In this document: one piece after another, positions 73 to 16,383 of the stretch
Numbering within the stretch: the first letter of the stretch is position 1
Layout: each line of letters starts with the position of its first letter
Source: Neocallimastix lanati (nom. inval.)
Lineage: Eukaryota; Neocallimastigomycota; Neocallimastigomycetes; Neocallimastigales; Neocallimastigaceae
Direction of reading: 5' to 3'
Assembly (NCBI GenBank): GCA_016946835.1
Contig: JACVTC010000015.1
Location: 797,501 to 825,000, forward strand
DNA: 27,500 bases
Position numbers and translations under genes: made by a program
The notes under the pieces: model-generated
Seen by the model: the letters and a program-made list of their open reading frames with translations, nothing else
What the model was told of the DNA's origin: nothing
The model's database searches: none

Positions 73-1617
73 TTATTTCGTTAAACTTATACTTTTTTTT
101 TTATTTTTATTTAAATCTGCTCCATGTTTCTTCAAGCATTCTACTAAACTTTTATTTCCATGTTTACATGCAATAAATAATACTTTTTCACCATATTCAC
201 TTTCTTTATTTATATCTGCTCCATGTTCCACCAAATATTCTACTAAATCTTTATTTCCACTTTTACATGCATAAAATAATGGTGTTTCACCATTCCAATT
301 TTCTTTATTTATACTTGCACCTTGTTTTACCAAGTATTCTACTAAATCTTTATTTCCACTTTCACACGCATAAAATAATGGTATTTCTTTAAATATATTA
401 TCTTTATTTATATCTACTCCATGTCCCACCAAGTATTCTACTAAATTTTTGTTTCCACTTTTACATACAATAAATAATACTGTTTCACCATTCCAATTTT
501 CTTTATTTATATCTGCTCCATGTTCCACCAAGTATTCTACTAAATTTTGGTTTCCATTATTATATACAATAAATAATACTGTTTCATTATTACAGTTTTC
601 TTTATTTATATTTGCTCCATGTTCCACCAAGAATTCTACTAAATCTTTATTTTCATTTCTACATGCAATAAATAATACTGTTTCACCATTCCAATTTTCT
701 TTATTTATATCTGCTCCATGTTTCACTAAGTATTCCACTAAATCTTTATTTCCACTTCTACATGCAATAAATAATAATGTTTCACCATATCTATTTTCTT
801 TATTTATATCTGCTCCATGTTCCACCAAGTATTCTACTAAATTTTGGTTTCCATTATTATATACAATAAATAATACTGTTTCATTATTACAGTTTTCTTT
901 ATTTATATTTGCTCCATGTTCCACCAAGAATTCTACTAAATCTTTATTTTCATTTCTACATGCAATAAATAATACTGTTTCACCATATTTATTTTCTTTA
1001 TTTATATCTGCTCCATGTTCCACCAAGTATTCTACTAAATTTTGGTTTCCACTTTTACATACAATAAATAATGGTGTTTCATAATTCCAATTTTCTTTAT
1101 TTATATCTGCACCATGTTTTACCAAATATTCTACTAAATCTTTATTTCCACTTTCACATGCATAAAATAATGGTACTTCTTTAAACATATTATCTTTATT
1201 TATATCTACTCTATGTTCTACTAAATAATATATTAAATTTTTATTCATATTTTCAACTTTATAAGTCTTCCCATAACTAAGATTATAATAAAAATTACCT
1301 TCTTTTTCATAATCTATTATTATTTTATATTTATATTCAGAGATTTCCTTATTTAAATTTTTTGAAGAAATAAAAGCTTTATTTTTATACAGAAAAAGTA
1401 ACCATTTAATAAAGTCATTATCATAAACCTTTAAATTATCAAAAATAATTTTTAATAATTCCATTTCATTCTTCTCAATTAATAATTTTATTAAGGAAGA
1501 AGATATATATAAATCACGGGGATTATCGTTTATTAGACTTTTTAATCTTTTGGGTATAAGTTTATTTTCATTATATATTTCCAATAATATACCTTTCTTA
1601 TTTAAACTGTTGGTCAT
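73..1617 (-). CDS. Ankyrin-repeat protein, 514 aa
   Basis: The reading frame is complete, from ATG at 1617 to TAA at 73-75. Residues 1 to about 125 are a helical, lysine-rich region without clear repeats. From there to the C-terminus run about 12 units of 33 residues with the ankyrin pattern (GNKDLVEYLVKHGADINKEN, then a variable loop, ETPLFxACxS), so this is an ankyrin solenoid expected to bind other proteins. No signal peptide or membrane segment is seen, so a cytosolic or nuclear location is likely. The units are unusually alike, and units 3-4 are repeated exactly as units 6-7. The start is supported by an A-rich leader just upstream on the coding strand and by the loss of coding character before it. 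Codon use is very AT-rich, unlike the SH3 gene at 9625-16383. Large families of such proteins occur in anaerobic fungi, but the specific role is unknown. Confidence 0.9.
   Translation of the reverse strand: MTNSLNKKGILLEIYNENKLIPKRLKSLINDNPRDLYISSSLIKLLIEKNEMELLKIIFDNLKVYDNDFIKWLLFLYKNKAFISSKNLNKEISEYKYKIIIDYEKEGNFYYNLSYGKTYKVENMNKNLIYYLVEHRVDINKDNMFKEVPLFYACESGNKDLVEYLVKHGADINKENWNYETPLFIVCKSGNQNLVEYLVEHGADINKENKYGETVLFIACRNENKDLVEFLVEHGANINKENCNNETVLFIVYNNGNQNLVEYLVEHGADINKENRYGETLLFIACRSGNKDLVEYLVKHGADINKENWNGETVLFIACRNENKDLVEFLVEHGANINKENCNNETVLFIVYNNGNQNLVEYLVEHGADINKENWNGETVLFIVCKSGNKNLVEYLVGHGVDINKDNIFKEIPLFYACESGNKDLVEYLVKQGASINKENWNGETPLFYACKSGNKDLVEYLVEHGADINKESEYGEKVLFIACKHGNKSLVECLKKHGADLNKNKKKSISLTK
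496..986 (-). repeat. Internal duplication of three ankyrin units (period 297 bp)
   Basis: Bases 496-689 are identical to 793-986, a 194-nt match offset by 297 bp, which is exactly three 99-bp ankyrin units. The reading frame is preserved. This is a recent in-frame tandem duplication, most simply explained by unequal exchange between repeats. Confidence 0.9.
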
Positions 1618-2966: not shown

Positions 2967-3216
2967 GTAGTTTTTTTTTTTTTTTTTTTAGACTAGGAAT
3001 AAACTTTATTTAATAATATTATTTTTTTTTTTAAAAAATACATGAAGTTTAAATACATGAAATTTTTTTTTTTTTTTTATATTAATATTAAAAAACTACG
3101 TTATGAGATTCGAGGACGAAATGGCCTCTAACTCTTTCCATTCATCGAAGATAACTTCCATGTGGATGAAAATTATCATTCGAATCTGTATCAGAATTTC
3201 TTCTTTGCCTTATCGT

Positions 3217-3235
3217 TACGACGTCGACGCTCTTG
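3217..3235 (-). repeat. 19-nt GC-rich block shared by both LINE copies (copy 1)
   Basis: TACGACGTCGACGCTCTTG is identical to 8341-8359 and lies at the end of the coding region in both LINE copies. It is strikingly CpG-rich for this DNA. It could encode conserved C-terminal residues (two frames possible, one arginine-rich) or be a 3' RNA recognition element. Confidence 0.75.
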
Positions 3236-3601
3236 ACAACGGTATAGGTCTAACACTATACAAATCGATCATGGTGTAAAAATCACCAATCACAATAGGC
3301 ATAACGTTAGTAAGGAATTCCGCAAGCCCCACAAAATATGAAATCGGGAAAGAAGACTCGTTCGAAGGTGATTGAAAAATATTATTAATATATCGCCTTC
3401 TTTCCCCCGAGCCGATCTTTAAGATTTCAAATACTGCATTTCCGCCAAGAAGGAGACACAGCACGTAAAAATTGATATTATCATCAAAATCTTCCTCTTT
3501 ATCATCAGGAATGTTCAATGATTTCTCATTGAACAATTAGAGAAAAATTAATAAAAATTTCATCAACAAAGGGAATGAAATGTTGCCTAAATTCTTCAAA
3601 T

Positions 3602-6056
3602 TTAGGACATAAAAGTATCCAGTGTGTTAAAATTAGGTATGCTGTTACTCTCACCACAACAAGGGCAGTATGTTGGGCAATTTTCTGATACTAGATTACT
3701 TCTAACATACGTTTTTACATCAAATTTGAATCCACATTTAATTCGTCCAATCCAAAAAAATCCAAGAGAAAATTGTGAATATTTAAGTGATAGACGTTGA
3801 ATAAATTTTTTAAAACCAAATTTAAATTTCTTGTATTTTGTAGATCTGATCGCAGGAGTGCTTAAATAATGAATATTTTCCCAGTAAAACTTCCTTATTT
3901 CTCCAGGAAGTTTATTATTGTGCTTGTGTACTGCTAAATTCCGTGCTTTTTTCGTCCATGAATAGTGAGAAAGTGTAGGTATATTTTTTTTGACTAAATG
4001 AGAAATAATACAAGAAGAATCTTTCCACTTTTTAAAGCATCGAATCATCGCCATAGCACAAAAACTAGCTATAGGAGGTATAGAAAGTTCCTTAGACATA
4101 TTGTAAATTGAAGTATTGGAGGTTTTATTTTTAAACCCGAAACTCCAGTACAAACCTCGATTAAAAGCAGTTTGAGCTTTTTCAGTATTCTTTTTATTTG
4201 AACCAAGTAAGGGAGCATAATAAAGAACTGAACTAAGGACAAAAGAAACTAGTATACGAGTTTTAAAGTAGAAAGGAACATTCCTATTGGTTAAAAATCT
4301 AAAGAAAGAGTTAACTGTATAATTAATTTTACTATTCATCTTAGCAATAATAGGTTTTAAATCCAACGATTCATTAAAAGGTATACCAAGATATGTATAT
4401 TGATTAGTGTTTGGTATATAGTTCATACCAAGTCTAAAAGTAGGATTTTCATAATGTCTTGAAGGTATAAAATTCTTTGGTTTAACAACTAGTGTAGCGC
4501 ATTTATTGATTCCAAAGGTCATTTCATTTTTAATACCCCAATCATGAGCAATATTCAAAAGGTTTTTAAGTGAAGATTTTGTAGGAGCTAATAATACAAT
4601 ATCATCAGCAAATAATCCACCACAACACTTTTTCTTTTCAGTAATCACACCATAACTTTTACATTTATCAAAAATATCATTGATAAATATATTGAATAAA
4701 ATAGGAGAGAGAGGACACCCTTGGCAAACACCATGGTGTATTGGAAATTCTTTTGAAAGTTTACCATTAAAGTTTGCACGAGCTTTCGAGGTAAGGTATA
4801 GATTAGTAATGAATTGAAGGCATTTACCACGAATACCAAGATAATTTAGTTTAGTAAGTATATTGTAAATTGGAACTGAATCATAAGCTTTTTTAAGGTC
4901 AAGAAAGGCAAGAAAGGTAAATTTATCCTTAAATTTTCTTCTTTGACAAATTTCACGAATGGATACAAATAAACTAATACATTCTTCTTTATTTCTAAAA
5001 CCAAACTGTTCTGGTCTAATTATTCCATTAGAAAAAGCATAGTCCGATATTCTTTTAGTGACAATTTTTGATAGAATTTTTAAACCTACATTGATGAGTG
5101 AAATACCACGATAATTATTACAATCTGAAAGATCCCCTTTTTTAGGAATAGAAACAATAGAAGCAGAGTTCCATTCATTAGGAAAGTCACCATCCCAAAT
5201 TTTATTAAAAAGTAATAACAGACACTTTGCACAATCGGAATAAGTAACCTCTTGATTAGAGTCATCCTGAGAAGAATTTCTACTCTCAGAATTAAAAAAT
5301 GCTTTAAAAAATTCTGTAGGTATACCATCAGGACCAGGTGCTTTGTTATTTTTCATTGAAAGAACAGTTGAATGAATTTCTGACATGGAAATAGGTTGAT
5401 TAATATCCCATGATTCCTGAGGAGTAGAAGAATTATTAAGTATTCTTTTCCAATAATTTTCATTAAGACTGTGACCAGTTATATCAGAAGCAAGTTCTTC
5501 ATAGTGTTCTGCAAAACGATTGAGTTGATCTTCTTGGGATACTAGAACATTACCTTCTTTATCTTTAATGTATACAGGTGATTGGGAAGGAGAGTAAGAA
5601 GGTTTAGAAATTTTCTTAAGTCCAGACCAACCACGCTGGGCATCATTTTTTAAGAAACATTCGCCGATGGAATGAATCAAATTTTTAAATCTAATATTCC
5701 TAATATTTCTTTTAATACTAATGATATAATCAGAAAGAACTCTATATTCTTTTGAGAGATCACAAAATTCTTGAAGATTTGACAAATCATTACGAAGTTT
5801 AAAATTTTTAATCCTTTTATAAAATAAATGTTTTTCATGTGATAATTTCTTAATATAAGCAGGACAATGGAACGCTGAACCCTGTAAATTTGTAGGAACT
5901 CTTGCTTGAATGTCATCGCCTATTTTATTTGCTGTGTCAAGAAGTTTTTTAACCATTGTATTAGAGTCTAGATTATCATTATGTTCAAATTCATCCAGTA
6001 AACATGTGAATTTATTATGAGAGAAGATTGCTTCAACGTTTATCCCTACAAATTCG
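3602..6056 (-). CDS. LINE reverse transcriptase domain, longest intact open segment
   Basis: This is the largest uninterrupted part of the LINE protein, about 815 codons. It reads through a linker into the reverse transcriptase, with finger motifs KAPGPDGIPTEFF and YRGISL, motif A FLDLKKAYDS (about 4875-4910), motif B GVCQGCPLSPILFN, catalytic motif C FADD (4601-4612), motif D GINKCATLVV and motif E YLGIPFN. A thumb and C-terminal region ending in the CPCCG half of a zinc knuckle follows. FADD in place of YADD is usual for many LINEs. In life this domain would copy element RNA at a nicked target site. The frame stays open to 6181, but upstream of about 6040 the true coding frame is another one (it carries SDHLPL), so an ATG at 6181 is not the real start. 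The clade cannot be fixed by eye. Confidence 0.92.
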
Positions 6057-6059
6057 ATT

Positions 6060-7193
6060 AGACCACTTAATTTGTTTATCCCGAGGGGGAGTAACAAAAC
6101 CATCAGGAGATATTTTTTTACAAGAAAGAATAAGTGGTAAATGGTCAGAGATGTCATTAAAAGAGTAGCATACAGAAGCAATATACAGATAATTTCTTAA
6201 TTTATCGTTCACTACTATAAAATCAATACAAGAATTCTTTCCACCATTAAACCAAGTAAATTGATGACCAACCATATCCATAACAAACCATTGAGGGGAA
6301 ATTCTAAGAATAAGATCTTTGAGTTGTTGCTTAGTCATGTTGAAATCACCAACAATAGCCGAAGGGTTATTCTGATGGTTCTTGAGCCAATTAGCAAAAT
6401 CAGTTTCCGCTTTTTCTCTAGTGTCTTTGTGTTTTTTTGCTAGGGATGTAAATGTTCCCTAAAGAACATCTGACACCCCAAAAAGAGAATATATTTACTG
6501 AGAGTATATATCTATATTCAAAATCATCATTAGTGAATTGGCAGGAGGAGTGCACACCTATATAAAGGCCCCTCATACCAGGGATTTTTTTTGTCCGCAC
6601 GTCTCAGTACTGTTCTATAATGATTAAGGAATGGATATGAGTTAGAAAAGGAGTTAAGGAATGAACTATTACCGACTTCTTGAAGACAAATACAAATAGG
6701 ATTAAAGATTGAATTAAAATTGATAAGTCCGTCACGTTTTTCAGAATTCCAACCATTTATGTTCCAGCTAATACAGAGGTTGAAATATTTAGTATTCGAG
6801 AAAGGGTTAGCATACAGGAGGCTTTCAGAGATGGGGATTGAGGGTTCAGAATAATACCTGGTTCTATTATGATTAACATTACTAAATGTGCGTATCCTTG
6901 AAGTAATCTTCCATTTTATTCTTTTAACAGGTAAGTGCTTAGTAATCAAATAAATAACCTTCAAATAATCAGTACAATTATTATAGTTAACTCTTAAGGA
7001 TGAAGTAGTTTTCCATATTAATATAGTGTTTTTTAACGATTCCATGAACAACTTCATTACAATTTGATATCTTTTTGCTTAAAAATTCCCATAGTCTACT
7101 TTCAGTCCAAGATTCAAGATCATGAATGAAAATTAAAACAAATTTATCATGGTCAGGACCATAAAGTCGCAGACCTCTTCGTATAGTTGACAT
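6060..7193 (-). pseudogene. LINE N-terminal region and APE-type endonuclease, spread over four frames
   Basis: Four consecutive frame segments make up this part: 7193 to about 7034, 7034 to about 6592, 6592 to about 6438, and 6438 to about 6041. Joined, they give an N-terminal region and an endonuclease/exonuclease/phosphatase-family domain. The metal- and DNA-binding motifs are visible: WNIN, LQE, GDFN, IDFIV and SDHLPL. In LINEs this enzyme nicks the target to prime reverse transcription. Each break is an apparent single-base excess in an A run of the coding strand. Confidence 0.82.
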
Positions 7194-7200
7194 AATAAAA

Positions 7201-7744
7201 TAAAAAAACTTATCTATATTAATAAAAGGTTAAGTGTAATATAAAAATAAAAAAATAAAATTAGTAAAAAATTAAAAAATTAAAAAAAAATAAAAATTTA
7301 TTGCTGTTGTCTTCTCTTTCGTGTATATTGTTTGCTAAAACTTGTTTGTTATTCTTTCTTTTTGTGTTGACTAGTTTTTAATTAATGATTTTCAATTATA
7401 AATTCCTGTTTTATGTAAAAATTTCTGTAAAATAATCATATATAATATAAAATTTAAATGTTAATGAAATAATAGTTGTGAAAAACTATAAAAAGATTCC
7501 CATCCGTTAAATAATGTCTCAAACACAAGCTTTGGAGTGAATCAATCTCCTACAATTCCATTTTACAATAGCTACATGAGAGTATAAATAATACTATAGA
7601 AAAAAACATATACAAAATAATGCTAAAGTAAAAAATACAATAGATTCATTACAATGATAATATGTAGAAACTACATGATATTATTAATTATACAACTCCA
7701 ATGTTACTACATATCCAGTTTAAGACATTATAGAACGTCAAGTT
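7201..7744. other. Spacer between LINE 5' end and decayed gene
   Basis: The first part is AT-rich low complexity that may include the LINE 5' UTR (7200-7330). The second part, about 7490-7740, is more complex in composition, but I could not read a convincing protein from it on either strand. It may be decayed coding sequence belonging to the fragment at 7745-8570. Confidence 0.45.
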
Positions 7745-7948
7745 CACTTTCTACAGTCCTCCAGTATTCCAGATTTCTCTCTTCGTACTAGAAGCCACTT
7801 TAGAAAGGATAACCATTGATTATCATCAGAATCACAGAAAGCTGTAATTTAGTACACCTGATATAGGTTATTCCTTTTCCATCAACCCTCCATGGACCTG
7901 GAAAAACAGTCCACTTCATTGGGGATTTTTCAATTAATTCTTCAAATT

Positions 7949-7957
7949 CATCTAAAT

Positions 7958-7963
<6 letters not shown>
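7949..7963. repeat. Target-site duplication, left copy (15 bp)
   Basis: CATCTAAATTATGAT directly precedes the T run of the truncated LINE and is identical to 8413-8427 at its other end. Confidence 0.9.
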
Positions 7964-8003
<40 letters not shown>

Positions 8004-8412
8004 CAGGGAAGAGAATACACTTCCAAAACTTTATTAAATTTTATTTTAAAAAATACATGTAGGTGAAAAGTACATTTGAAATTAAAAAATAAAAAATTAA
8101 AAAATAAAAAAAAATAAAAAAGCTCGAAAATACTATGTATTTCGGCAAGTTGTACTATACGGGATTTTTTCCCTTCCTATCAAATAAAAAAGAAATATAA
8201 CCTAGAAGTAACATCTTTAAAATAGATAGTGTGGTGTCCACTAAACTCTCCCCGGACTCATCATTTATTGAACCACTAGGGAGAGATTCATCCTTCGTAG
8301 CAATAGATGACGATCCTGTATTATCATTATGCCTTATCAGTACGACGTCGACGCTCTTGGATAAGTTTGGTATTTTGCAATACCTATCAAATAATAGCTC
8401 AAACGTCTGTTC
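7964..8412 (-). mobile_element. 5'-truncated LINE copy (about 450 bp)
   Basis: A 38-base T run (7963-8000) is the poly(A) tail of a minus-strand element. Beside it is a 3' UTR similar to that of the large LINE (AGAC, ACTTTATT, AAAAAATACATG). The rest encodes only the C-terminal end, including FELLFDRYCKIPNLSK, comparable with FYTMIDLYSVRPIPLSR in the large copy, and the shared 19-nt GC-rich block. The copy is bracketed by a perfect 15-bp target-site duplication. The copies differ substantially, so they are related members of one family rather than siblings. An apparent 86-codon frame starting at 8415 borrows its ATG from the target-site duplication and is not a gene. Confidence 0.88.
8341..8359 (-). 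repeat. 19-nt GC-rich block shared by both LINE copies (copy 2)
   Basis: It is identical to 3217-3235; similarity extends a few bases further (GCCTTATC precedes both on the plus strand). Confidence 0.75.
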
Positions 8413-9624: not shown

Positions 9625-12600
9625 CTATTGTTTTGAAGAATGTTTATGTTGCTTTTTTAACTTATATTCCTTCTTTTTCTTGGCAAATTCCGTTAAATCT
9701 TGTTTAAACTTTTCTTCATCTTCAATTTCCTTTTTACCCGCTTCTTCTCTTGCTTGGAAAACACGAATTAATCTTGGTACATAACGACCATTCTTATTGG
9801 GTTCACGTTCTTCTCCTAAACAAATAACTGGGAATGTACCATCGACCTTAGTGGCAGTGTTAATACCATAGGCCCAACCATCCTCAAATACTTGTTTTAC
9901 TTCAACTAAATCTCCAAGGTTTAATTTGACTTCATCTGGAAGTTGTGGGGTATGTTCAAGAATGACTTCAAAAACCTTCTTTTCAAAAACCGGACCGCTC
10001 CAATCTTCAACACTGTAATTACTTCTAATACTGCTAGCGTTGGATGGTTTACGTACTAAACAACCTTCAGCCATTGCTTTTATTGATTGTTTAGATTCCT
10101 TTCTCTCTAAACTTTGTGGCATGGATTGTTTTCTTGATGTCTTTCTCTCTATACCTTGAGAAATGGATTGTTTTCTTGGTTGAGGTATATATTTAGTTTC
10201 TTCATTAATTTCATTCTCAAGTTTAGCAATTTCAGCAATAACAGCAGCCTTTAATTCAGCGGATAAACGTTTAGAACTAGAACGTTTTGGAAGTTGACGT
10301 TTACGGAAATTTCTTGCTTCTGTTGAAGACGTTGTTTCCATCATTCTATTATCTTCCATAGGTTGACTTTCATCTTCTTCTGTAATAGATGGTAAAGCTT
10401 CATATTCATATTCATATTCTTCTCCATCAATAGTACTGGTAGTATTGGTTGTAGGGATATAGGAAGTGGTATTATTAGTAGTAGTAGTGATAGGTGTTGT
10501 GTAAGAATTATGGGTATTAGAAATATCGGCATTATTGGTGTTAGTAGTTTTAATATCATTGGTATCAGTGGTGGTAGTGGTGGTAGTGGTATTGTTTTCA
10601 TTATTTAAGGACCGGATCCCTTCCGAAGGAGGGATCCTAAAGCGAAAATTTGGCTTTCCTTCAGTAGTTGATTCTTCAGAGACTTGTACCCCATTCTTGA
10701 AGACAGTCTTCTTTAAGGTCTTTTCCTTACCTTCTTCAATTTCATATTCTTCAACAACTTCTTCGGTTTCCATAGCATCATCTGGAATTTCACTGACTTC
10801 ATCAAATTCTTCATGAACTGGAACACCATTTCTGTAGGTAGTTCTCTTAACAGTCTTCTTTGGCTTTCCATCTTCTCCTTCTTCAATAAGGTATTCCTCT
10901 ACGATTTCTTCGCCATCCTTAGAAATTTCTCTGGTTTGACCTTCTGGAGCTTCACGGCTACCTAATAATTTAGTAATGTTGGTAACTTGACCTAAAAGGT
11001 TATCAAGATCAGCCTTACTGTCGTTATCCTTGGCATTTGGAAGAGCGTATTTGACAATGGTTTCAATGATGGATGGAGCTAACTTCATGTATGGGTTGTC
11101 ATTGTTTCCACCAGTAATACTGTTGGTAATCTTGTTGGCAACAGCATGGGTTACCATGTCACTAACGAATCCACGGTCATTGGATTGTGGAGCAGTAGCA
11201 TCTCTAGTTTGGTTTTCTGGAGCTTCACGGCTACCTAATAACTTGGTAATGTTGGTAACTTGACCTAAAAGGTTATCAAGATCAGCCTTACTGTCGTTAT
11301 CCTTGGCATTTGGAAGAGCATACTTGACAATAGTTTCAATGATGGATGGAGCTAACTTCATGTATGGGTTGTCATTGTTTCCACCAGTAATACTGTTGGT
11401 AATCTTGTTGGCAACAGCATGGGTTACCATGTCACTAACGAATCCACGGTCATTGGATTGTGGAGCAGTAGCATCTCTGGTTTGGTTTTCTGGAGCTTCA
11501 CGGCTACCTAATAACTTGGTAATGTTGGTAACTTGACCTAAAAGGTTATCAAGATCAGCCTTACTGTCGTTATCCTTGGCATTTGGAAGAGCGTACTTGA
11601 CAATAGTTTCAATGATGGATGGAGCTAACTTCATGTATGGGTTGTCATTGTTTCCACCAGTAATACTGTTGGTAATCTTGTTGGCAACAGCATGGGTTAC
11701 CATGTCACTAACGAATCCACGGTCATTGGATTGTGGAGCAGTAGCATCTCTAGTTTGGTTTTCTGGAGCTTCACGGCTACCTAATAACTTGGTAATGTTG
11801 GTAACTTGACCTAAAAGGTTATCAAGATCAGCCTTACTGTCGTTATCCTTGGCATTTGGAAGAGCGTACTTTACAATGGTTTCAATGACGCTTGGAGCTA
11901 ACTTCATGTATGGATTTGAGCCAATGTCTCTGGTAGTGCTTTGATCTTCAACACTAACTGGAACCTTTACTGGAACACCGTTTTGATAGATAGTCTTGTA
12001 GACAGTCTTCTTAAGGGTCTTTGGTGGTTGGTTCTTACCTTCTTCAATTTCGTATTCTTCAACAACTTCTTCAGTTTCCATGGCATCCTTTGGAATTTCA
12101 TCGACTTCATCATATTCTTCAGCGACTGGAACACCATTTCTGTAGGTAGTTCTCTTTACAGTCTTCTTTGGCTTACCATCTTCACCTTCTTCAATAATGT
12201 ATTCTTCAATAATTTCTTCTAAATCATCACCGGTGGTGGTTGGTGCCTTCTTGACGATTTTCTTGGTCTTTGTTTCAGTTTCTTCAACTGGAACCTTGAC
12301 TGGAACTCCATTCTTGTAAATGGTCTTGTAGATAGTCTTCTTAATGGTCTTCTTTGGCTTCTTGACACCATTTTCAATAACATATTCTTCAACAACTTCT
12401 TCAGTATCCTTACCATCCTTAACTGGGACATTTCTTTCATCAACTTCAACTGGAACTTGAACTGGAACTCCGTTCTTGTAGATAGTCTTGTAGATGGTCT
12501 TCTTAATGGTCTTCTTTGGCTTCTTGACACCATTTACGAGGACGTATTCTTCAACCTTTTCTTCTGGAAGTCCCTTCTTACCTGGAGTTAACTTCTTACC

Positions 12601-15600
12601 AGTGTATTTTGGAGACTTGATTAAAGTTTCTTCAGAATCTTCTTCTGGTGGAACAACATTACTTTGATCAACAAGAGCAGGATAGGCTTCGAGAACAATT
12701 TCTTCTGGTTCCTCTTCAACAACTTCTACTGGAACACCATTCTTATAAATAGTCTTGTAGGTAGTAACCTTCTTAATGGTCTTAAGCTTTGGTGACTTAA
12801 TATTTTCTTCTTCAAGGGTAGTGGTATCGTTTGGAGAGTAGGTCTTTTCGGTAGTAGATTGGTCTGGAAGATCTTCAGATTCGGTGACTTCTTCTACTGG
12901 AACACCATTCTTATAGGTAGTCTTGTAAGTAGTAACAAACTTCTTAACAGAGTGAATCTTTGGACTCTTGACGGTAGTTGGCTTAACAACTCTTTCTTCA
13001 GCAACACTTTCCTTAGTTGGTGGTTCAATGACGTTAGAAGTAACATATCTCTTTTCAATCTTATCATTGTTGGTAGGCTTGACACGAGTATCTCTTGGAA
13101 GGGAAGCAAGAACTTCTTCTGGAGTCTTACCTTCTGGAACTTCAATATTTTCAACAACTTCTTGTGGCTTACCATTCTTGTAGATAGTCTTGTAGACAGT
13201 AATGTACTTCTTAATGGTTTTTTGCTTTGGAGACTTGCTAGTTGGAACAACAATTTCTTCGGAAGAGAATTCCTTATATTCTTCTGGAAGTTCTTCTGGA
13301 GAGACATCCTTTGGATTAAGAGAGAATTCTTCGGTGACTGGAACTTCCTTACCATCCTTAGTAACATAAGTGGTAATTCTCTTCTTAAGACCCTTAAGCT
13401 TTGGTGACTTCATTGACTTTGAGGAGGTTTCAGAGGTTTCAGAGACTTCTTCATCAACTGGGACTTGAACTGGAACACCGTTTCTGTATATGGTCTTGTA
13501 AACGGTTCTCTTGACGGTCTTCTTTGGACCCTTGTTCTTAAGAAGGTATGTTTCAACTTGTTCCTTGGAGTCTGGGTTAATTTCAGTAACCTTGCTAATT
13601 AATTTCTTTAAGTCATTCTTCTTTTCATCTTCAGCCTTATCACCTAATGGAGTAGAGTGCTTTACAATAGTTTCAATGATCATTGGAACCATACCCATGT
13701 ATGGGTTAGTAGCTTCCTTGGTTTCAGCAACAACTGGACCATCAACTTCCTTAGTAACTGGAACTTGAACAGGAACACCATTTCTGTAAATGGTCTTGTA
13801 AGTAGTGATTGTCTTCTTGGTGGTCTTCTTTGGTTTCTTACTATCTTCTTCAATAATGTATTCTTCAACAATTTCTTCTGGAGATTCAGAACCAGTAGAA
13901 AGGTCCTTTGGAGAGGAGGAATCACCTTCTTCTACTGGAACTTGAACTGGAACACCATTTCTGTAGATGGTCTTGTAAACAGTTCTCTTAACAGTCTTCT
14001 TTGGACTCTTCTTACCATGTTCAACAATATATTCTTCAACAATTTCTTCATCGTTAGTCTTCTTACCTGGAACAACTGGGAGAACCTTTTCCTTATTGGA
14101 AATAGTATTGTAACTGTTGACCATTTCCTTAACAGTCTTTGGCTTTTCCTTTTCAGACTTCTTCTTAGAAGCAGCTAAAGCGGCACCAGCTGCAAGTGGA
14201 GCTGCTGCGGCCATGTATTTTGGATCAAAACTGTTCTTAGTAGTGGTAGTAGTGGTGGTCTTGGTGGTCTTACCACTAGTGGATGGTCCATATCTGTTTT
14301 CATAGGTAGTAGTTTCAGTACTTGGAGCATTGTTAGTAGTGTAAGTCTTAGTAGTAGAAGTAGTAAATGGTCTATCAGCAGCTGGGTAAATATATTTGGT
14401 AGTGGAAGTAATGTTCTTCTTTGGTGAAGTAGAAGATTGAACATTTTTAACATCCTTAATTGGACCAGCTGGACCATATCTAGTTTCATAGATAGTTTCA
14501 GTAGTTGGAGCATTATTAGTGTAATAAGTAGTCTTAGTAGTAGTCTTGGTAGTCTTCTTTGGATCCTTAGAGGCAGCAACAGCACCAGCAGTAGCACCAG
14601 CAGCTAAAACAGCTGGTAAAATACCAATATCGCCACTCTTGTTTTCGTTTATTGGAGAAGTATATTGGTCCTTTATAAGAGTATCCATGGATGGGCCAGA
14701 TTCAATAGTTGGTAAAGCACCACCGCTAATATCTTGTTCTCTTCCAATGTTAGAAGCAGTGTTAACCGGAGCAGCAGTGGCAGCCTTTGGACCATTACCA
14801 TATCTAGTGGTAGTGGTGGTTGTTGTAGTTGTAGATGGACCTGCTTGATTAGCGTTAACAACATCATATGGAAGTTGAGAACCATATACTGTCTTACTAT
14901 TTGTGGTAGTAGAACCACCATTTGGACCAACAGCAGCAGCAGTTGGAGCATCACCTGGACGACCAACATTACTCATTTCAGTAACGGTTTCATTGGATGG
15001 AGTCTTTCCAATAACATCATCAAGGTACTTGTTCTTGTATAAGAAAGCACCAGCACCACCAACAAGACCAAGAATTGGTAAAGTGTAATAAAGGACACTT
15101 CCTCCCTTACTGTTCTTGGAATCCCTGGCATTTTGATCAATAATTTCTGGGGCTTGATTGTTAACTGTATTGCCAACTGGAGCGGCGTTAACATTACCAT
15201 TATTATCAACATTAGCAACTGTGTTACCATTGTTATCAGTAATATTACCATTTGGATCAAGATTGGCAACGGTGTTTCCCTTGTTATCAACAATATTTCC
15301 ATTTTTATCAACATTAGCAATAGTGTTACCATTGCTATCAACAACCTTATTATCCTTAATAGTACTGTTGGAAAAATCAGTAGTAGTACCATCTGGAGCA
15401 GTAACAACACCTGGCTTTGGAGTACCTGAAACATTACCATTGTTGTTATTACCACTAACTGGAGCAACTGGAGCGACCTTACCATCATTTCCAACATTAG
15501 CAACAGTGTTACCATTGTTATCAACAATTTTACCATCACTTACAGTACCAACAGTGTTACCCTTAGAATCAGTAATCTTACCATCATTACCAACGGTTCC

Positions 15601-16383
15601 TACAGTGTTACCCTTACTATCAACAACCTTTCCATCCTTAATAGTACTATTGGAAAGATCAGTAGTAGTACCATCTGGAGCAGTAACAACACCTGGCTTT
15701 GGAGTACCTGAAACATTACCATTGTTGTTATTACCACTAACTGGAGCAACTGGAGCGACCTTACCATCATTTCCAACATTAGCAACAGTGTTACCATTGT
15801 TATCAACAATTTTACCATCACTTACAGTACCAACAGTGTTACCCTTAGAATCAGTAATCTTACCATCATTACCAACGGTTCCTACAGTGTTACCCTTACT
15901 ATCAACAACCTTACCATCCTTAATGGTACCGTCGGAAAGATCAGTAGATGTACCATCTGGAGCAGTGACAACACCTGGTTTTGGAGTTCCAGAAACATTG
16001 TCATTACCATTAGTCTTACCAGAATTAGAACCAATAATACTACCATTTGATCCAGTCTTACCAGCAGCAGCTCCAGCAGCTCCGGCTGCACCAGCATTAG
16101 CGGCAGTGTTTCCATGATTACCAGTGTTATCAGCTGGAACTACACCTTCATCAAAAATAAGACCTTCATCATCACTACTGCTTTCTTCGTCAAAGTTTTG
16201 AACGAGAGCTAAAGCAATATCATCTAAAAAGATTTTGTCTGGAAAAGCTAAAGTATTAGCATCCGTTGGATCTGTATTACCATCCGTTGGAACTGTATTA
16301 CCAATACTTAATGGTTTAGTAAGAACATAGATTGAACCTAAAACTAAAAGAATTAGGCAACTTAAGAGATTTAAAGAATACAT
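9625..16383 (-). CDS. Giant single-pass membrane protein with cytoplasmic SH3 domain, 2252 aa
   Basis: One uninterrupted frame from ATG 16383. Residues 1-21 are a signal peptide (MYSLNLLSCLILLVLGSIYV). An acidic segment, an Ala/Gly stretch and a repetitive ectodomain of DGKxxDxxGNTVxxV units (about 130-405) follow. One transmembrane helix (about 428-449, LYYTLPILGLVGGAGAFLY) is followed by basic residues, placing the rest in the cytoplasm. The tail has Thr-rich linkers with RYGP motifs (about 500-740), about 13 modules around YKTIYxNGVPVxVPV (about 798-1460 and 1830-1910), three and a half 91-residue repeats (1490-1816), an Asn/Thr-rich linker, RKxS-type sites (about 2065-2100), an SH3 domain (about 2138-2189, with ELxxGDLVEVxxxxEDGWAYG-like core and GTFPVICL end) and a basic tail. 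Signal, TM and SH3 in this order suggest a surface sensor or cortical scaffold. Codon use is much richer in C and G than the ankyrin gene, suggesting strong expression. No homologue can be named. Confidence 0.92.
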   Translation of the reverse strand: MYSLNLLSCLILLVLGSIYVLTKPLSIGNTVPTDGNTDPTDANTLAFPDKIFLDDIALALVQNFDEESSSDDEGLIFDEGVVPADNTGNHGNTAANAGAAGAAGAAAGKTGSNGSIIGSNSGKTNGNDNVSGTPKPGVVTAPDGTSTDLSDGTIKDGKVVDSKGNTVGTVGNDGKITDSKGNTVGTVSDGKIVDNNGNTVANVGNDGKVAPVAPVSGNNNNGNVSGTPKPGVVTAPDGTTTDLSNSTIKDGKVVDSKGNTVGTVGNDGKITDSKGNTVGTVSDGKIVDNNGNTVANVGNDGKVAPVAPVSGNNNNGNVSGTPKPGVVTAPDGTTTDFSNSTIKDNKVVDSNGNTIANVDKNGNIVDNKGNTVANLDPNGNITDNNGNTVANVDNNGNVNAAPVGNTVNNQAPEIIDQNARDSKNSKGGSVLYYTLPILGLVGGAGAFLYKNKYLDDVIGKTPSNETVTEMSNVGRPGDAPTAAAVGPNGGSTTTNSKTVYGSQLPYDVVNANQAGPSTTTTTTTTTRYGNGPKAATAAPVNTASNIGREQDISGGALPTIESGPSMDTLIKDQYTSPINENKSGDIGILPAVLAAGATAGAVAASKDPKKTTKTTTKTTYYTNNAPTTETIYETRYGPAGPIKDVKNVQSSTSPKKNITSTTKYIYPAADRPFTTSTTKTYTTNNAPSTETTTYENRYGPSTSGKTTKTTTTTTTKNSFDPKYMAAAAPLAAGAALAASKKKSEKEKPKTVKEMVNSYNTISNKEKVLPVVPGKKTNDEEIVEEYIVEHGKKSPKKTVKRTVYKTIYRNGVPVQVPVEEGDSSSPKDLSTGSESPEEIVEEYIIEEDSKKPKKTTKKTITTYKTIYRNGVPVQVPVTKEVDGPVVAETKEATNPYMGMVPMIIETIVKHSTPLGDKAEDEKKNDLKKLISKVTEINPDSKEQVETYLLKNKGPKKTVKRTVYKTIYRNGVPVQVPVDEEVSETSETSSKSMKSPKLKGLKKRITTYVTKDGKEVPVTEEFSLNPKDVSPEELPEEYKEFSSEEIVVPTSKSPKQKTIKKYITVYKTIYKNGKPQEVVENIEVPEGKTPEEVLASLPRDTRVKPTNNDKIEKRYVTSNVIEPPTKESVAEERVVKPTTVKSPKIHSVKKFVTTYKTTYKNGVPVEEVTESEDLPDQSTTEKTYSPNDTTTLEEENIKSPKLKTIKKVTTYKTIYKNGVPVEVVEEEPEEIVLEAYPALVDQSNVVPPEEDSEETLIKSPKYTGKKLTPGKKGLPEEKVEEYVLVNGVKKPKKTIKKTIYKTIYKNGVPVQVPVEVDERNVPVKDGKDTEEVVEEYVIENGVKKPKKTIKKTIYKTIYKNGVPVKVPVEETETKTKKIVKKAPTTTGDDLEEIIEEYIIEEGEDGKPKKTVKRTTYRNGVPVAEEYDEVDEIPKDAMETEEVVEEYEIEEGKNQPPKTLKKTVYKTIYQNGVPVKVPVSVEDQSTTRDIGSNPYMKLAPSVIETIVKYALPNAKDNDSKADLDNLLGQVTNITKLLGSREAPENQTRDATAPQSNDRGFVSDMVTHAVANKITNSITGGNNDNPYMKLAPSIIETIVKYALPNAKDNDSKADLDNLLGQVTNITKLLGSREAPENQTRDATAPQSNDRGFVSDMVTHAVANKITNSITGGNNDNPYMKLAPSIIETIVKYALPNAKDNDSKADLDNLLGQVTNITKLLGSREAPENQTRDATAPQSNDRGFVSDMVTHAVANKITNSITGGNNDNPYMKLAPSIIETIVKYALPNAKDNDSKADLDNLLGQVTNITKLLGSREAPEGQTREISKDGEEIVEEYLIEEGEDGKPKKTVKRTTYRNGVPVHEEFDEVSEIPDDAMETEEVVEEYEIEEGKEKTLKKTVFKNGVQVSEESTTEGKPNFRFRIPPSEGIRSLNNENNTTTTTTTTDTNDIKTTNTNNADISNTHNSYTTPITTTTNNTTSYIPTTNTTSTIDGEEYEYEYEALPSITEEDESQPMEDNRMMETTSSTEARNFRKRQLPKRSSSKRLSAELKAAVIAEIAKLENEINEETKYIPQPRKQSISQGIERKTSRKQSMPQSLERKESKQSIKAMAEGCLVRKPSNASSIRSNYSVEDWSGPVFEKKVFEVILEHTPQLPDEVKLNLGDLVEVKQVFEDGWAYGINTATKVDGTFPVICLGEEREPNKNGRYVPRLIRVFQAREEAGKKEIEDEEKFKQDLTEFAKKKKEYKLKKQHKHSSKQ
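9817..9972 (-). other. SH3 domain coding segment
   Basis: Residues about 2138-2189 read VILEHTPQLPDEVKLNLGD then LVEVKQVFEDGWAYG and end GTFPVICL. This matches the SH3 layout: an ALYDY-like strand (here LEHTPQ), the acidic RT loop (PDEVKL), GD before the n-Src loop, the conserved W of DGWAYG, and the G-x-FP-x-x-C/Y-L end. The binding-face tryptophan and proline are present, so ligand binding is likely retained. Proline-rich partners are expected from the family. Confidence 0.85.
10936..11916 (-). repeat. 273-bp tandem repeats (3 full copies plus a partial copy) in the SH3 gene
   Basis: The units start at 11916, 11643, 11370 and 11097, each beginning NPYMKLAPS. The first three span 91 residues with IETIVKYALPNAKDNDSKAD, NLLGQVTNITKLLG, and FVSDMVTHAVANKITNSITG. 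The fourth stops after about 54 residues. The copies are nearly identical at DNA level, indicating recent expansion or ongoing homogenisation. A single diverged relative (NPYMGMVPMIIETIVKH) lies near 13706-13510. Confidence 0.93.
11940..13990 (-). repeat. Degenerate YKTIYxNGVPV module array in the SH3 protein
   Basis: About ten to eleven diverged copies of a module lie here, with two to three more at 10680-10860. Each copy has an acidic EEIVEEYxIE part, a basic KKTxKK/R part and YKTIYxNGVPVxVPV. Several are preceded by S-P-K. Alternating acid and base suggests self-association or an extended polyampholyte; that is inference. Confidence 0.85.
15431..15994 (-). repeat. Two 282-bp tandem repeats encoding ectodomain units of 94 aa
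   Basis: The junction sequence recurs at 15431, 15713 and 15995, an exact 282-bp (94-residue) spacing. Each unit holds PKPGVVTAPDGT, then three sub-repeats of about 16 residues (DGKxxDxxGNTVxxV), then VAPVAPVSGNNNN. A third, diverged partial unit lies at about 15170-15430. The Gly-Asn-Thr-Val sub-repeats suggest short beta strands and turns. Confidence 0.92.

Follow-up and report, generated by a model that had tools for sequence, protein, structure and literature searches.

The stretch of DNA analysed here (the window) comprises 27,500 nucleotides of contig C57 (C57:797501-825000) in a genome assembly of 199.0 Mb and 762 contigs. The window has a GC content of 0.23, and dockerin-type matches (PF02013) number at least 150 in the genome and occur in none of 14 control genomes. 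Low GC and dockerin matches fit an anaerobic gut fungus near Neocallimastix, going by what the available excerpt of a published source gives for GC (PMC12341934). The features discussed below are as follows.

73..1617, minus strand: unbroken 514-codon ORF of ankyrin repeats
2972..7924, minus strand: LINE copy (non-LTR retrotransposon), with its 5′ end at 7924 and its 3′ poly(A) end at ~2972
3096..7193, minus strand: span of the single long family ORF, from three-frame translation, sister-copy comparison and the intact frame in copy L030
3157..3628, minus strand: four frame-changing insertions, at ~3628, 3530, 3245-3246 and 3157, from three-frame translation and alignment
3989..3991, minus strand: an A run longer by 3 bases, leaving the frame unchanged; the extra bases are missing in all 29 other copies
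4379..5149, minus strand: reverse transcriptase domain (PF00078, residues 345-601 of window ORF 3602-6181, E 3.2e-36)
4726..4734, minus strand: two private substitutions changing two arginines of the HRGVRQGCPLSP reverse transcriptase motif (codons 819 and 822); 29 of 29 other copies differ
6036..6997, minus strand: four frame-changing single-base insertions, at ~6997, 6592, 6438 and 6036, in none of the comparable copies of the first alignment
6140..6773, minus strand: APE-type endonuclease region (approximate), placed by translation position from PF03372 at residues 141-350 of the L030 protein (E 1.5e-5)
7208..7850, minus strand: three single-base insertions in the 5′ UTR, at ~7850, 7231 and 7208, none of them present in the six upstream regions compared
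7963..8405, minus strand: multicopy SINE-like element of ~405 bases plus a poly(A) tail, just upstream of the LINE
9625..16383, minus strand: 2252-codon ORF without a break, used as a control of local accuracy

LINEs insert by target-primed reverse transcription. The limits of this copy are supported by a 5′ junction at 7924 common to all six upstream regions fetched, by a match that ends at 2971 in 26 of 29 copies and by poly(A) at the 3′ end; no target-site duplication was seen by eye around 7924 and 2972. Copies of the family differ in their 5′ limits and number roughly 170-240 in the genome according to two site counts, one for a 35-base site (168 occurrences with ≤2 mismatches) and one for another site (238 with ≤1 mismatch). 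The intact sister copy L030 has one ORF of 1361 codons with endonuclease and reverse transcriptase domains; PF00078 matches it with an E value of 1.6e-37, and the AP-like endonuclease upstream of the reverse transcriptase exceeds its cut-off by a narrow margin (PF03372, 25.3 bits versus 24.5). The order in the family protein is endonuclease, reverse transcriptase and a C-terminal cysteine-rich motif. A 1366-codon open stretch is present in 36 of the 53 top-ranked places, two of these 36 having one stop inside. From its sequence, the window element looks like an ordinary, abundant APE-type LINE.

The family resembles LINE-1 (L1) in having an endonuclease followed by a reverse transcriptase in one protein, and in its poly(A) tail. 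Among sequences of solved structures, the nearest are LINE-1 ORF2 proteins (best E 3.2e-33), and chains named R2 or ‘reverse transcriptase-like protein’ score lower (E 1.8e-17 to 5.6e-16). It differs from the L1 clade in that no ORF1 was seen upstream of the family ORF in the 5′ region of five copies, where the longest closed ATG frame is 28 codons.

When aligned with 29 other copies and six upstream regions, the window copy shows 12 insertions, each of 1-3 bases, over the 5-kb LINE, and not a single deletion. Three insertions lie in the 5′ UTR; the ORF span contains one in-frame triplet and eight frame-changing insertions that break the family ORF. The initial annotation had reported six frame steps in the +1 sense, and all six are confirmed by translation and alignment: on the minus strand, starting at 7193, the homologous protein runs through frames 0-1-2-0-1-2-0, and each step corresponds to one extra base that occurs in none of the comparable copies (27-29 per site, since L010 and L011 cannot be compared, in whole or in part, 5′ of about 6600). 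That list was nevertheless incomplete. Two further frame changes lie near the 3′ end, at 3245-3246 (two bases) and 3157 (one base), and the ORF end placed at 3216 is an artefact of a missed break, the family frame ending at ~3096. The first break falls at ~6997 rather than at 7029-7034, a displacement of ~30 bases, while the others are found at the runs at 6592 and 6438 and at ~6036, 3628 and 3530. All inserted bases are A or T. The breaks had been described as lying mostly in A or T runs, which is only partly the case: the stop-to-stop frame contains 10 insertions, four of which extend runs of ≥5, the other six being at single bases or a dinucleotide. Two kinds of length difference were excluded from the insertion count, namely the long A runs of the 3′ UTR, whose length differs from copy to copy and is greater in the window copy, and a T-run difference at -60 in the 5′ UTR, where the reference L030 is shorter and the state is common to many copies.

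Copies with one base fewer at each site had been named in advance as refuting evidence, and the comparable sister copies are of this kind, which speaks against translational slippage. At the short-run break at 3530, a genome-wide count found one exact place with the extra base, the window itself, versus 238 in the family state (≤1 mismatch allowed for the family state, exact matching for the insertion state). In copies fetched later, three long-run sites recur: 7208 in L031 and L079, 6592 in L034 and L035, and 6438 in L032.

The frame of the window copy also carries 11 private substitutions, all of them nonsynonymous. One of these, at 4726, changes the second arginine of HRGVRQGCPLSP (HRGVRQG motif) to cysteine, and the active-site motifs are not quite all intact, as they had been taken to be. 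Reverse transcriptases in general have a conserved arginine at this position. The reported absence of other stop codons is weak evidence because there are only 11 private substitutions in the frame.

We compared small indels with private substitutions across copies, counting indels against L030 in the stop-to-stop frame, setting aside indels of >3 bases and dropping aligned pieces of <400 bases. Loci L002-L030 are the best tblastn hits, a set that favours an unbroken reverse transcriptase frame. Five loci (L032-L035 and L038) were picked for the odd length or low score of their 5′ match, L031 and L079 because they share contig C57 with the window, and L080 because it is near a contig start. 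A further 34 loci (L036, L037, L039-L058 and L081-L092) were taken regardless of frame from the first part of the 168- and 238-place lists; we refer to these as unselected. L054, which a contig end truncates, appears in two sets, the 34 and the contig-end copies, and L045, which is at a contig end without a small indel, is kept among the 34.

The 29 top-ranked loci have no small insertions, three deletions and 141 private substitutions in 118.9 kb. The 34 unselected loci have 13 insertions, five deletions and 160 private substitutions in 58.9 kb, falling to three insertions and three deletions in 52.5 kb when L051, L084 and L054 are left out; a small indel is absent from 26 of the 34. Six insertions and no deletions are found in the five copies of odd length or score. 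The window copy, by comparison, has 10 insertions, no deletions and 11 private substitutions in 4.1 kb. At the rate of the unselected copies 1.25 small indels would be expected in the frame (Poisson P 8e-7), a value that is overstated because the window copy was picked for being broken. The insertion-only sense of this copy is unexceptional when taken alone (10:0 versus 13:5 in the unselected copies, Fisher P 0.13).

Small indels do not follow substitutions. The Spearman correlation between indels/kb and private substitutions/kb is -0.08 (P 0.49) over 75 aligned pieces and -0.42 (P 0.014) over the 34 unselected loci. Several insertion-rich copies have few private substitutions (three insertions versus one substitution in L051, four versus two in L084, five versus five in L031 and 10 versus six in L079), and the most-substituted copies are nearly without small indels (18 substitutions and one indel in L038, 15 and none in L056). 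L044 has two insertions together with nine private substitutions in 2.2 kb. Pieces with ≥0.9 small indels/kb away from contig ends average 1.8 private substitutions/kb, and the rest 2.3. With 2.7 and 4.1 private substitutions per kb, respectively, the window copy and L044 are, by this measure, not young, and the other four indel-rich pieces would be young. Because indels are decoupled from substitutions across copies, age explains the insertions poorly, and age-dependent decay is disfavoured.

The two other C57 copies, L031 and L079, have 15 insertions and no deletions in 8.2 kb. Over the three C57 copies this amounts to 25 insertions and no deletions, with all 25 insertions A or T, four of them of two or three bases, and 10 in runs of ≥5. 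The clustering on C57 is weaker than it appears, because L031 and L079 are adjacent and represent approximately one extra region. These two copies have one insertion in common, at a two-base run, which could be a real inherited change. They lie head to tail (C57:1174150-1182780), with the poly(A) of one copy joined directly to a 5′-truncated second copy, an arrangement that could have arisen from template jumping in reverse transcription or from nested insertion. Closely spaced LINE copies on the same strand are also seen elsewhere, for example on C190, C79 and C319.

Copies near contig ends show a different pattern. L080 and L054 together have 23 insertions, 13 deletions and three private substitutions in 4.2 kb, most of these in L080 (C15:1020-3230), which has 20 insertions, 11 deletions and three private substitutions over its 2.2 kb, an appearance that suggests a poor consensus close to the edge of a contig. 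We take the mixed indels of L080 and L054 to be the error pattern of the assembly. L045 reaches a contig end yet is without a small indel. The C57 copies differ from the contig-end copies in the sense of their indels (25:0 versus 23:13, Fisher P 0.0004), as does the window copy alone (10:0, P 0.04). A second comparison comes from L093 (C56:161800-166000) and L094 (C556:11950-16116), which share a 4098-base BLAST match with no mismatch and two gaps; global alignment adds three mismatches and longer gaps, the latter at the far end. On this similarity, the 16-kb contig C556 is probably an unmerged assembly duplicate of a stretch of C56.

The neighbouring genes had been reported as unbroken, and the 2252- and 514-codon ORFs are indeed without breaks. 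At LINE context rates ∼14.3 insertions would be expected in the two ORFs together, and none is seen (P about 6e-7). Uniformly poor local sequence is disfavoured by these clean flanking ORFs. The 2252-codon ORF has beta-flower matches (PF21785 and PF21784) and an SH3 match that is weak and falls short of the Pfam threshold; C56 and C556 carry stretches 70-84% similar to this ORF. No second haplotype was found with a 3-kb stretch of a flanking ORF, which matches itself, an adjacent stretch at 71% and stretches at 70-84% on C56 and C556. The SINE-like element beside the LINE lies between the two units of a 14-base direct repeat (8419-8406 and 7962-7949). Compared with 15 other copies over 8405-8000, it shows four private substitutions and, as its only length change, T-run lengthening that is also present in one to four of the 15; no insertion at short runs was found over this interval, which is too short to decide the matter.

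Taken together, these comparisons make it likely, in our judgment, that the extra bases are residual long-read consensus errors confined to thinly supported repeat copies. Insertion-type errors would have persisted in a repeat copy to which few reads could be assigned unambiguously, and the unique flanks would have been corrected. We infer three steps here: the erroneous nature of the insertions, the long-read origin of the assembly and the role of thin repeat support in the contrast with the flanks. Apart from real substitutions, the arginine changes in the reverse transcriptase among them, the true copy may then have a mostly unbroken frame. The excerpt available of the account of a published N. 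lanati assembly, which may differ from the one analysed, describes 62x PacBio coverage, reads of 7.8 kb on average, MECAT assembly and ARROW polishing (PMC8561657); with a mean read length of 7.8 kb, few anchored reads would span a 5-kb LINE. Both the pair L080 and L054 and the C56/C556 match point to consensus error as a source of indels unaccompanied by substitutions. Assembly error should produce indels without a matching excess of substitutions, as is observed both here and in the two copies near contig ends. It would also be expected to affect neighbouring unique sequence, which it does not (∼14 breaks expected in the flanking ORFs), and such errors must therefore be confined to repeats. 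Of the causes put forward in the initial annotation, insertion-type assembly error is thus the best supported, through the comparison of copies rather than through reads.

Several observations stand against this reading. Small indels are absent from 26 of 34 unselected copies that are equally repetitive, which repeat-confined error would explain only if read support varied from place to place. The contig-end copy L045 is clean, and L044 bears insertions yet is not young. The C57 copies are insertion-only and A/T-only, in contrast to the mixed pattern at contig ends; the adjacent SINE has gained length in long runs only; and L031 and L079 have an insertion in common. Repeat-confined error with few anchored reads reconciles most of the evidence, and we believe that the frame breaks, as distinct from the LINE itself, are probably not a real feature of this locus.

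We give appreciably less credence to the insertions being real, in which case some regional LINE copies, including all three examined on C57, would gain A/T-only insertions with no corresponding substitutions, either because reverse transcription is error-prone or through insertion-biased slippage. Reverse-transcription error and regional slippage, considered jointly, are a minority possibility, and each by itself is unlikely. In the first case, a poor copying event, with a slipping reverse transcriptase or a damaged RNA template, would have added A or T at many sites. Such an event fits the confinement of insertions to the LINE and the clean flanks, the independence from age, the insertion-only sense and the insertion-richness of both of the adjacent head-to-tail copies L031 and L079. 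However, 26 of the 34 unselected copies, presumably made by the same reverse transcriptase family, are without a small indel, so that the events would have to be rare, and the insertion-richness of all three C57 copies (with L031 and L079 as about one region) is not predicted. The idea of an insertion-prone reverse transcriptase is accordingly disfavoured in its general form, and what survives of it is a rare bad copying event.

We regard as equally doubtful a gain of bases after insertion, through local A/T slippage with a strong insertion bias, while selection keeps the flanking genes in frame. The 25:0 ratio in the C57 copies, the A/T-only composition and the 10 of 25 insertions in runs of ≥5 are consistent with slippage, as is the richness of the intergenic DNA here in long A and T runs, and selection would explain the clean genes. 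Against it, insertions are decoupled from substitutions, more-substituted copies on other contigs are mostly without insertions, and a region-specific mutation process would be required.

Ordinary neutral decay of an old copy is very improbable. The nonsynonymous nature of all 11 private substitutions is compatible with a dead copy (chance ∼0.05 that none would be synonymous, at a computed neutral fraction of 0.24), and the 10:0 sense does not differ significantly from that of the unselected copies (P 0.13), but the indels per private substitution in those copies predict 1.2 indels where 10 are seen (P 8e-7, in a copy ascertained as broken). It was sound to argue that under neutral decay insertions, deletions and stops would occur together, and the comparison with sister copies strengthens this argument. 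Programmed +1 ribosomal frameshifting in translation shares the sense of the frame changes as first reported, but the frame of the sister copies is continuous and needs no shift, most top-ranked places have the 1366-codon open stretch and the shift sites are not conserved (no extra bases in the 27-29 comparable copies, 238 to 1 at 3530), and we reject +1 translational slippage for the family and consider it to have next to no chance of explaining this copy.

If the extra bases are errors, frameshifts in one repeat copy of such an assembly are no basis for calling that copy dead or recoded unless reads are consulted, and a rapid check from within the assembly is offered by sister copies and by contig ends. 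Should the insertions instead be real, the family would be a neutral recorder of A/T-run gain in an extremely AT-rich genome, and the long A and T runs of intergenic DNA could be fed by the same process.

Finally, over 30 bases the SINE-like element matches the 3′ end of the LINE coding sequence at 93%, and it also shares the GTCTAAAA end. This similarity suggests that the SINE-like element may be mobilised by this LINE family.
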